Assembly (NCBI GenBank): GCA_003280135.1
Contig: QCFW01000006.1
Span: 1-64,000 of the forward strand
Length of the DNA stretch: 64,000 bases
Reading direction: 5' to 3'
Source: Prochlorococcus sp. AG-363-N16
GTDB taxonomy: Bacteria > Cyanobacteriota > Cyanobacteriia > PCC-6307 > Cyanobiaceae
Part shown: positions 10,106 through 17,832 of the stretch, piece after piece
How positions within the stretch are numbered: the first letter of the stretch is position 1
How the letters are laid out: each line of letters opens with the position of its first letter
Made by a program: the position numbers and the translations under genes
The notes under the pieces: model-generated
What the model was told of the DNA's origin: nothing
Databases searched by the model: none
The model's input: the letters and a program-made list of their open reading frames with translations, nothing else

Positions 10106-11188
10106 ATGAAAGAACACAGAATAGTACTTCTGCCAGGAGATGGTATAGGGCCAGAAATTTCTGAAGTTACAATCAAGATTCTGTTAGCAGTTTCTAGAAA
10201 AAATAACTTTCTCATACATATTGAAGAGAAATTATTTGGAGCTTCTTCTATTCAAAAATATGGTGAACCTTTATCTGAAGATACATTGCAAGCTTGCAAA
10301 GCTTCAGATGCTGTTCTATTAGCAGCTATAGGTGATCCACAATTCGATACTCTTCCCAGAAGCTTAAGACCAGAATCAGGGTTGTTAAAATTAAGATCAA
10401 GTCTTGATCTCTTTGCAAATATTCGACCTGTAAAAGTAATACCAGCATTAATGAGTGCGAGTTCCCTCAAGCAAGAAGTTGTCAAAGATGTTGATTTATT
10501 AGTAGTGAGAGAACTAACTGGTGGAATATATTTCGGAGAACCAAAAGGACTAGTAAAAACTGAACATGGTAAAAGGGCTTTTAATACAATGGTTTATTCA
10601 GATATCGAAATAGACAGAATTGCTAGGGTGGCTTTTGAACTTGCCTGTAGCCGAAGGCAAAAATTATGTTCTATTGATAAAGCTAATGTATTGGACGTTA
10701 GTCAGTTATGGAGGGAGAGAGTTTGTGAAATGGCGAATAAATACCAAACTATTGATGTTAGTCATCAATATGTAGATAACGCAGCAATGCAGTTAGTAAA
10801 AGATCCCAGTCAGTTTGATGTAATACTTACTAGCAATCTTTTTGGAGATATTATTAGCGATGAAGCAGCAATGATTTCTGGGTCTATAGGAATGTTGCCA
10901 TCAGCTTCAATAAATAATCAAGGACCAGGTCTATTCGAGCCAGTACATGGATCAGCACCAGATATAGCAGGACAAGACATAGCAAACCCAATAGCGATGA
11001 TACTTTCAGCGGCAATGATGCTTAGGATTGGTCTTAAAGAAAACAATGCAGCTAAGGATATAGAAAAAGCTGTTGACAAAGTTTTAAATAATGGATTCAG
11101 AACCATCGATATTGCAAATAGCACATCAAAACCACTTGGATGCAGACATTTTGGAGAGGAAATTCTTCAGGTTATTAATTCAATTTAA
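10106..11188 (+). CDS. leuB: LeuB, 3-isopropylmalate dehydrogenase
   Basis: LeuB oxidises and decarboxylates 3-isopropylmalate with NAD in leucine synthesis. The 360 residues include the opening LPGDGIGPEI motif and the substrate-binding ESGLLKLRSSLDLFANIRP stretch around residue 90. They also include the active-site Tyr/Lys segments and the metal-binding SNLFGDIISDEAAMISGSIG region near residue 245. The LFEPVHGSAPDIAG motif near residue 275 distinguishes this family from isocitrate dehydrogenases. Start and length are normal. It is followed 86 bases later by prk. Confidence 0.96.
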   Translation: MKEHRIVLLPGDGIGPEISEVTIKILLAVSRKNNFLIHIEEKLFGASSIQKYGEPLSEDTLQACKASDAVLLAAIGDPQFDTLPRSLRPESGLLKLRSSLDLFANIRPVKVIPALMSASSLKQEVVKDVDLLVVRELTGGIYFGEPKGLVKTEHGKRAFNTMVYSDIEIDRIARVAFELACSRRQKLCSIDKANVLDVSQLWRERVCEMANKYQTIDVSHQYVDNAAMQLVKDPSQFDVILTSNLFGDIISDEAAMISGSIGMLPSASINNQGPGLFEPVHGSAPDIAGQDIANPIAMILSAAMMLRIGLKENNAAKDIEKAVDKVLNNGFRTIDIANSTSKPLGCRHFGEEILQVINSI

Positions 11189-11274: not shown

Positions 11275-12177
11275 ATGTCAAAGCGTCATCCAGTTGTGGC
11301 TGTAACCGGATCATCAGGAGCAGGCACAAGTACTGTAAAAAGAGCTTTTGAGCATATATTCGCTCGAGAAGAAATTATTCCTGCTGTTGTTGAAGGGGAT
11401 AGTTACCATAGATTTGAAAGGCTCCCAATGAAACAAGCAATGGCAGACGCTCTTGCTCAAGGAGAAAATTTCTCTCATTTTGGACCTGAAGCAAATCTGT
11501 TTGACAAACTAGAAGAACTCTTCAAAGAATATGGAAAAACTGGTGGAGGAAAGAAAAGGTATTACCTACATAGTCAAGAAGAAGCTGAAGAGCATAATGC
11601 GCGTCTTGGAACTGATCTAGGACCTGGGCAATTCACCCCTTGGGAGGAAATACCTAACGGCACAGACGTTCTCTTTTATGAAGGCCTTCATGGTGGTGTG
11701 GTTGGTGATAATTATGATGTTGCTTCAAAGGCAGATTTGTTAGTTGGTGTAGTTCCTATTACAAATTTGGAATGGATACAAAAAATTCATAGAGATAATG
11801 CTGAAAGGGGTTATTCAGCCGAAACAATTGTTGACACGATGTTGCGAAGAATGCCTGATTACATAAATCACATTTGCCCACAATTTAGTAGAACAGATAT
11901 TAATTTCCAAAGGGTTCCGACTGTTGATACTTCGAATCCATTTATCTGCAGAAATATACCTACTCCAGATGAGAGCTTTGTCATTATTCACTTTAGAAAA
12001 GGAGCTAGAGAGAAGTGGGGGATTGATTTCCAATATCTTTTAGGTATGATTAACGATTCATTTATGTCAAGTCCCACAAGTATTGTCGTTAATGGTGGGA
12101 AAATGGGTTTTGCAATGGAGCTGATTCTTACACCAATTATTCATAAAATGATTGAAGAAAAGTCAAGGCTTTCTTAA
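11275..12177 (+). CDS. prk: Phosphoribulokinase, class I (proteobacterial type)
   Basis: This enzyme phosphorylates ribulose 5-phosphate to make the RuBisCO substrate. The P-loop GSSGAGTST is at residues 12-20. Family motifs GDSYHRFER, SHFGPEAN, LFYEGLHGG and NLEWIQKIHRD follow in order. At 300 residues it resembles the short octameric proteobacterial enzyme (Rhodobacter type). It does not resemble the longer plant/cyanobacterial form, whose N-terminal regulatory Cys pair is absent here. Established knowledge says the short type is controlled by NADH and AMP rather than thioredoxin; applying that here is inference. The GTAG-ATG start gives a conventional N-terminus. It follows leuB and may end at a hairpin terminator overlapping its stop. 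Confidence 0.93.
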   Translation: MSKRHPVVAVTGSSGAGTSTVKRAFEHIFAREEIIPAVVEGDSYHRFERLPMKQAMADALAQGENFSHFGPEANLFDKLEELFKEYGKTGGGKKRYYLHSQEEAEEHNARLGTDLGPGQFTPWEEIPNGTDVLFYEGLHGGVVGDNYDVASKADLLVGVVPITNLEWIQKIHRDNAERGYSAETIVDTMLRRMPDYINHICPQFSRTDINFQRVPTVDTSNPFICRNIPTPDESFVIIHFRKGAREKWGIDFQYLLGMINDSFMSSPTSIVVNGGKMGFAMELILTPIIHKMIEEKSRLS

Positions 12178-12519: not shown

Positions 12520-13026
12520 ATGAATCAAGTTAATTTATTCTCTAGCTTATTTATATTTATTATTTTGTTTATTATTTCGATCTCTGATATAAAAAAGAAA
12601 ATTATAAATCTCAAATTAGTATTTGTTGCTTATCTTTATATATTATTTGTTTATCCCATATTCGAAAGCTTTCTTCTAGAACATCACTTAATTACCAATA
12701 TTTTAGAAAGATTTTATTCTTCTTTAGTAACACTTTTTTCTTTATTCCTTGTAGAATTTGTAGCTTCAAATTTCCTAAGAAAGGTATCATTAGGTCATGG
12801 AGATATTCTCTTGGCGTCTATGGGGTCAGCTTGGATTGGAATTAAAGGCATATTTATTGCCTTAGCTTTTTCTTTTTTTATAGCCGGTTTAAAGGATTTC
12901 TTCAGGTTAATTTTTTATAAACAAATTAATGAAACGCCCTTTGCTCCCTATCTATCCTTATCTATTTTCGTATTATGGATTTTTGGGGTTGAATTAATTG
13001 ATATGCTAGTCATTAGGTTCTTTTAG
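12520..13026 (+). CDS. Stand-alone A24-family (prepilin peptidase-like) membrane protease
   Basis: This 168-residue, strongly hydrophobic protein resembles only the C-terminal protease half of PilD-type prepilin peptidases. The first catalytic Asp is in SISDIKKKIINL near residue 23. The second is in the GxGD signature GHGDILLASMGSAWIG near residue 93. A TPFAPYLSL segment near residue 144 fits the conserved P-F-x-P-x-L loop. About six membrane segments are expected. The N-terminal methyltransferase domain with its Cys zinc site is missing. It could process type IV-like pilins or other secreted proteins. No pilin genes are in the window. A hairpin terminator follows. Confidence 0.72.
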   Translation: MNQVNLFSSLFIFIILFIISISDIKKKIINLKLVFVAYLYILFVYPIFESFLLEHHLITNILERFYSSLVTLFSLFLVEFVASNFLRKVSLGHGDILLASMGSAWIGIKGIFIALAFSFFIAGLKDFFRLIFYKQINETPFAPYLSLSIFVLWIFGVELIDMLVIRFF

Positions 13027-16758: not shown

Positions 16759-17832
16759 ATGGCCCTCGTTCCCCTAAGGCTCTTACTTGATCATGCCGCT
16801 GAAAACGGCTATGGAATACCTGCATTCAACGTTAACAACCTTGAACAAGTTCAAGCAATTATGGAAGCAGCATCCGAAACTGATAGTCCAGTAATTCTAC
16901 AGGCATCAAGGGGAGCACGAAGCTATGCAGGTGAGATCTTCCTCCGTCATTTAATAATTGCAGCTACTGAAACCTACCCAAATATTCCTGTTGTAATGCA
17001 CCAGGACCATGGTAATGAACCATCAACTTGTTATTCAGCTGCTATAAATGGGTTCACATCTGTGATGATGGATGGGTCGTTAGAAGCAGATGCCAAAACA
17101 CCTGCAAGTTATGAATACAATGTAGAAGTAACTAAAACAGTCGTTGATTTTGCGCATTCAGTGGGTGTAAGCGTAGAGGGCGAATTAGGATGCTTAGGAT
17201 CATTAGAAACAGGTAAAGGAGAAGCAGAAGATGGTCATGGTTTTGAAGGGGAACTTTCAAAAGACATGCTCCTTACTGATCCTTCTGAGGCAGCTGACTT
17301 TGTTGCAAGAACAAAAGTTGATGCTCTTGCTATCGCAATAGGTACAAGTCATGGTGCATATAAATTCACAAGAAAGCCAACTGGAGAAGTATTAGCTATA
17401 AGCAGAATTGCTGAGATTCATAAAGCACTTCCAAATACTCATTTAGTTATGCATGGATCTAGCTCAGTTCCACAAGAATGGCTTGACATGATTAACAAGT
17501 TTGGTGGGGCAATACCTGAAACATATGGTGTCCCTGTAGAAGAAATTCAAGAAGGGATACGCAATGGAGTAAGAAAGGTAAATATTGATACTGACAATAG
17601 ACTTGCCTTTACTGCTGCTGTAAGAGAAGCTGCTGCTGCTGATCCTACGAATTTTGATCCAAGACACTTCAATAAGCCTGCCAGAAAGTATATGAAGCAA
17701 GTGTGTTTAGACAGATATCAACAATTCTGGTGTGCGGGTCAAGCCAGCAAAATAAAACAAAGAAGTACAAATTATTTTGCAGATTTATATGCAAAAGGAG
17801 AATTAGATCCAAAAACAGCTGTCAAAGCCTAA
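16759..17832 (+). CDS. fba: Class II fructose-bisphosphate aldolase (Calvin cycle)
   Basis: This zinc-dependent aldolase joins dihydroxyacetone phosphate with glyceraldehyde 3-phosphate or erythrose 4-phosphate in the Calvin cycle and gluconeogenesis. The 357-residue protein shows [10 protein letters not shown] near residue 21 and the metal/substrate motif [13 protein letters not shown] near residue 80. [16 protein letters not shown], the [12 protein letters not shown] loop near residue 140, [13 protein letters not shown] and [10 protein letters not shown] near residue 226 follow. This is the class IIB (CbbA) pattern. Its codon use is richer in G and C than its neighbours, as expected for high expression. 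With the class I copy dead upstream, it is the only aldolase visible in this window. A strong bidirectional terminator follows. Confidence 0.95.

Follow-up and report, generated by a model that had tools for sequence, protein, structure and literature searches.

The phosphoribulokinase (PRK) gene prk occupies positions 11275..12177 on the forward strand of the window, by which we mean the whole 64,000-nucleotide stretch that was analysed. Its frame of 903 bases is complete and open throughout, from the ATG at 11275 to the stop at 12177, and the 300 aa product is of the bacterial PRK class by profile, closest structure and fold. In profile searches it scored 491.5 bits against NF011997 (PRK15453, an equivalog with cut-off 362) and 62.9 bits against the plant/cyanobacterial NF005655 (PRK07429), which is below the cut-off of 236, while PF00485, the superfamily common to both kinds, scored 224.3 bits. 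The closest solved relative by sequence is the Rhodobacter sphaeroides (Rs) enzyme 1a7j (335 bits). It also ranks first when structures are compared with the fold predicted for the protein (mean pLDDT 84.9), at TM 0.85 across the query and 52% identity. The P-loop GSSGAGTS (residues 12-19, 11308..11331, +) is free of cysteine, whereas the loop of the plant type reads SGCGKS, and the residues aligned with Rs H45, K165 and R168, described as catalytic in a passage of PMC5241800, are present as H45, K170 and R173. Because C201 and C225 are the only cysteines in the protein, there is no N-terminal Cys pair, and the full plant-type PRK genes that we fetched have open frames of about 335-353 aa. With the bacterial-type enzymes the protein shares its curated class, its fold and length, the residues of catalysis and the missing cysteine pair. 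A first-pass annotation of the gene had described it as a shorter, proteobacterial-type PRK without the N-terminal regulatory Cys pair. Its wording that the enzyme closely follows the Rhodobacter type is right for the class but not for nearness, since identity is 55.6% (about 56%) to R. sphaeroides and about 70% to rows from Ectothiorhodospira, Thiobacillus and Chromatiaceae.

That alpha-cyanobacteria have a bacterial-type PRK, the main point of that annotation, is already known. Passages of PMC9978339 and PMC9199185 list alpha-cyanobacteria, alongside proteobacteria, among the holders of this type, the enzyme of the window corresponds to class III of Wilson et al. 2019 as relayed in PMC9199185, and distinct alpha and beta PRK clades are reported in a part of PMC6946739. 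Three structures released in 2026 under the title "cyanobacteria specific PRK" (PDB 9qkn, 9qko and 9qkp) are a further PRK type, with 19-22% identity to the window enzyme in fold alignment.

Upstream of prk lies a leuB-like gene (Iso_dh, 10106..11188, +), and downstream a prepilin-peptidase-like frame is followed by accD. The leuB-like gene was found upstream of prk in all 37 named alpha-cyanobacterial loci and in 0/49 other loci; leuB and lpxD are near prk in 37/37 and accD in 34/37 of the former, again with 0/49 among the others, so prk sits at a place shared by the alpha-cyanobacteria. Unlike in bacterial-type loci, prk is not beside other cbb genes: no direct neighbour is another Calvin-cycle gene, and fba is at 16759-17832. 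The Peptidase_A24 (prepilin-peptidase-like) frame between prk and accD (12520-13026, +) had no tblastn counterpart in the flanking DNA fetched for the 37 named loci.

The source genome is 81.7% complete and amounts to 1.4 Mb in 42 contigs. It has one PF00485 match above cut-off, the prk of the window; five further matches, considered as a second PRK, were rejected as they fell below cut-off and covered 20-29 positions. A second, plant-type prk had been set beforehand as the finding that would speak against a replacement, and the profile search returned none in this 81.7%-complete genome. None of 200 relatives of the order had a plant-type PRK above cut-off, with at most 10 candidates being scored in each, and the bacterial type was present in 198 of the 200 (all except G169 and G197). 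The cell thus probably has no other PRK.

In the Rs enzyme, NADH and AMP reportedly act at an arginine-rich interface of R30, R31, R221, R234 and R257 (Kung et al. 1999). We take the positions aligned here with R31, R221, R234 and R257 to be this allosteric cluster and compared them in 69 alpha-cyanobacterial, 7 other cyanobacterial class I (bacterial-type) and 47 proteobacterial rows (42 gamma/beta and 5 other); the 69 are interrelated and include near-copies, with at least one probable duplicate (L018/L086, whose contigs are equally long). All four arginines are retained in 42/42 gamma/beta and 5/5 other proteobacterial rows; R30 varies among proteobacteria as well and is little informative. 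In the window enzyme the cluster is incomplete. R31 (11365..11367, +) is kept in 69/69 alpha-cyanobacterial rows, and R226, the equivalent of Rs R221 (11947..11952, +, together with the adjoining C225), in 68/69. H239 (11989..11991, +) replaces Rs R234, and S266 (12070..12072, +) replaces Rs R257, both arginines belonging to the allosteric cluster. The R234 position is H in 69/69 alpha-cyanobacterial and 7/7 other cyanobacterial rows and R in all 47 proteobacterial ones; at R257, the alpha-cyanobacterial rows have S (68) or T (1), and R is found in 7/7 other cyanobacterial and 47/47 proteobacterial rows. A further difference from the Rs type is an insertion at residues 240-250 (11992..12024, +): the segment 236-254 has 19 residues in the 69 and 7 cyanobacterial rows versus 15 or 17 in the 47 proteobacterial rows. 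The broken arginine cluster concerns regulation, not membership of the bacterial PRK class.

Descent and spread of the class I enzyme

The PRK tree comprised 82 sequences (28 alpha-cyanobacterial, picked from the 69, 7 other cyanobacterial and 47 proteobacterial), with R. sphaeroides and four enzymes from plasmids as the root. The other 42 proteobacterial rows are chromosomal, one of them labelled Rhizobium; they were taken from the best 80 of at least 576 matches and are the nearest relatives, not a fair sample. With all columns included, the cyanobacterial class I enzymes form one clade (100/96) within the gamma/beta-proteobacteria, with weak support for its exact sister (82/74). By tree and by identity, the nearest proteobacterial enzymes in this nearest-match sample are from gamma/beta-proteobacteria, not Rhodobacter, and the replacement by transfer that had been suggested for the alpha-cyanobacterial line fits this position.

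Whether the cyanobacterial enzymes have a single origin depends on the columns used. When 31 trait-related columns were removed, the alpha-cyanobacterial and the other cyanobacterial groups separated in the free trees, the quick tree included, and the proteobacteria formed one side of a branch in 14% of the bootstrap trees. This would be expected if alpha-cyanobacteria and Pseudanabaena/Picosynechococcus had gained their enzymes separately from proteobacteria, with R234H and the insertion arising twice. We regard such a double gain as rather doubtful, although it is the strongest of the alternatives that we consider, because the full data join the groups firmly, the clade retains SH-aLRT values of 94 and 91 when only the Arg sites or only residues 240-250 are dropped, and even the reduced data favour the tree in which the groups are held together (likelihood better by 5.28, p-AU 0.678).

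Carriage of the alpha-cyanobacterial enzyme by mobile elements was considered and rejected. Three phage-collection records matched, all Salmonella-labelled; two pattern matches among viral contigs held no relative in a search for close relatives only; and the 40 listed among 133 matching plasmid records were all proteobacterial. Some of these records are probably mislabelled, namely OR851030.1 (H41), a 3.3-kb "phage" record taken up largely by a match to class I PRK of enteric type, and NZ_CP141089.1 (H12) and NZ_OL790812.1 (H36), "plasmids" of 4-5 Mb that resemble chromosomes.

Among 292 genomes drawn from the phylum, class I PRK was found in 42, of which 36 belong to the family of the source genome and six come from three other families, with Picosynechococcus and Pseudanabaena among them. 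Five of these six also have a plant-type PRK above cut-off, and G448 has none. Compared with the RuBisCO large subunit of G213, a genome with plant-type PRK only, theirs show 88.5-93.9% identity, and compared with that of the window genome 72.3-76.4%; for two controls from alpha-cyanobacteria, identity to the latter is 94.3% and 97.9%. The six are form IB-like, a label assigned by comparison. The first-pass annotation had likened the transfer of PRK to that of the alpha-cyanobacterial RuBisCO and carboxysome. The likeness is incomplete, since the six cyanobacteria pair a bacterial-type PRK with a form IB-like RuBisCO, and the spread of this PRK is thus not bound up with the form IA set.

G282 matches a plasmid of Picosynechococcus PCC 7003 at 100%, and G467 and G476 match, also at 100%, plasmids of P. 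galeata CCNP1313 and Pseudanabaena sp. ABRG5-3, both of them two-enzyme strains. A table passage of PMC6950573 lists two prk genes for Picosynechococcus PCC 7002, with transcripts measured for both; the two genes of this strain are A2665 and A2857. The family of G448 comprises 38 genomes, 26 of them in one Pseudanabaena genus (g79). Within this genus class I PRK is present in 25 genomes and plant-type PRK in 17, eight genomes have class I only, and G482 (82% complete) has neither. Seven of the eight are at least 95% complete (G469 is a single contig), and G485 is 76% complete. The 12 family members outside the genus divide into 11 with plant-type and no class I PRK and one with neither (G488, 77% complete). 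The class I enzymes of all 25 genomes have R234H, keep R257 and carry a hydrophobic residue at the R31 position. One of these genomes, G464, shows 6% contamination, with a duplicate class I PRK (L270, L271) and a fragment with an internal stop; one copy was used.

CP12 alongside the bacterial-type PRK

The C-terminal part of CP12 binds GAPDH, and the AWD_VEEL region and the N-terminal part bind PRK, as summarized in a passage of PMC11257934. A CP12 of 72 aa is encoded in the source genome, a likeness to the plant/cyanobacterial PRK-CP12-GAPDH system that goes with a shared PRK reaction; the protein has the C-terminal Cys pair only, and neither the N-terminal Cys pair nor the AWD_VEE of the canonical (N/C) form. 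Within the order, CP12 was found in 100/101 genomes (the exception is G082). The motif set comprised 31 proteins, the 30 best-scoring places plus the source genome's own; in 31/31 there was neither AWD.VE nor a cysteine ahead of the C-terminal pair, and the pair itself was kept in 31/31. The loss of the PRK-binding motif and of the N-terminal Cys pair throughout this set lends support to the earlier suggestion that no CP12 switch acts through this enzyme. That the classical form is missing from marine picoplankton was already noted in a part of PMC3906501. Absence of the N-terminal pair alone is compatible with binding, as the CP12 of S. elongatus PCC 7942, which lacks it, still makes a ternary complex (reported in a passage of PMC9406205). 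As CP12 is still encoded, with the GAPDH-binding C-terminal half kept and the N-terminal module lost, a CP12 switch acting on GAPDH only is likely in alpha-cyanobacteria.

The six class I genomes from other families show AWDAVEEL in the five with two enzymes and AWDHLGEL in G448. In the Pseudanabaena genus the motif AWD.VEEL is intact in 17/17 two-enzyme genomes (altered in 0/17), and of the eight class I-only genomes five have an altered motif (G448, G464, G465, G472, G474) and three an intact one (G468, G469, G485). For G465 the shorter of two CP12 frames was scored, the longer being likewise altered; for G468 and G469 longer second frames are altered and were left out of the count. Alteration of the motif is associated with loss of the plant-type PRK in a Fisher test that ignores ancestry (p = 0.0011 for 25 genomes; p = 0.0005 for 24 genomes without G485). 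The PRK tree requires 7 changes for presence of the plant-type enzyme and 5 for the CP12 motif. An ancestry-aware test on three independent pairs on starred branches, fewer than the six or more informative pairs that it requires, was not significant (on average 1.8 pairs changed the same way, 0 the opposite way and 1.2 showed no difference). The co-occurrence of two-enzyme and class I-only beta-cyanobacteria with a matching decay of CP12 is the unexpected part of this analysis, and it is suggestive.

Some beta-cyanobacterial genomes have additional frames, about 205-209 aa long, that bear CP12 (L192, L202 (G330), L289 (G465), L293 (G469) and L294 (G468)), perhaps as CBS-CP12 fusions; AWD_VEE is altered in those of G465, G468 and G469.

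Control of RuBP synthesis

Judged from sequence, we consider it fairly probable that the sole PRK is an enzyme of gamma/beta-proteobacterial descent that is neither redox-gated nor strongly gated by NADH or AMP, and that the brake on RuBP synthesis in darkness lies elsewhere. The enzyme would convert Ru5P and ATP to RuBP, feeding RuBisCO. The enzyme lacks the N-terminal cysteine pair of the plant type, the cell's CP12 is without its PRK-binding module, and R234H and R257S break the NADH/AMP arginine cluster. In the dark, RuBP formation would then be held back at GAPDH through the C-terminal half that CP12 retains, by the ATP supply or by expression. GAPDH would, we infer, be a control point for RuBP synthesis.

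The first-pass annotation had instead proposed control by NADH or AMP, and the replaced arginines cast doubt on this part of it. An altered effector site could persist, with R31 and R221 kept, and because these two are retained the loss of the NADH/AMP response is something that we infer. A PRK that still answers both effectors through such a remodelled site would also suit a full-length class I enzyme with responsive proteobacterial homologues; in the anoxygenic-type PRKs, AMP inhibits and NADH activates (stated in a passage of PMC4806589). We nevertheless find a remodelled site unlikely, as R234 and R257 are replaced in 69/69 alpha-cyanobacterial and 0/47 proteobacterial rows. Least probable is a switch of the enzyme's own, by a C201-C225 disulphide or another modification: C201 (codon 11875..11877, +) is present in 69/69 and C225, beside the R221 equivalent, in 63/69 alpha-cyanobacterial rows, versus T201 in 41/42 and A, T or S225 in 42/42 gamma/beta rows, but C225 is missing in 6/69, and C201 also occurs in 4/5 other proteobacterial rows and so is not tied to light control. 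The sequences argue for a loss of known control sites over an exchange of one for another, and the predicted regulation of an ungated alpha-cyanobacterial PRK is unlike both known kinds.

Taken together, and held tentatively at somewhat less than even chances, class I PRK may have reached the cyanobacteria by a route unconnected with form IA RuBisCO. Pseudanabaena would show a replacement in progress, in which the bacterial PRK was gained, both enzymes were kept, the plant-type enzyme was lost several times and the PRK-binding motif of CP12 then decayed; alpha-cyanobacteria would represent the end state, with a PRK free of thioredoxin, CP12, NADH and AMP control. In the literature passages searched we found no description of class I PRK in Pseudanabaena or of the arginine replacements, which is no proof of absence, and the passages of PMC9978339 and PMC9199185 make no mention of class I PRK in Picosynechococcus/Pseudanabaena or of these replacements.

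In the sea, at least 25% of primary production is due to picoplanktonic Synechococcus and Prochlorococcus, according to a part of PMC11257934. If neither the plant nor the purple-bacterial mode of control applies to their PRK, how RuBP synthesis stops at night becomes a question. One genus with both one- and two-PRK genomes, including strains with named plasmid records, makes the order of events testable. Finally, the target of cyanophage CP12 may be GAPDH alone in hosts with a bacterial-type PRK.
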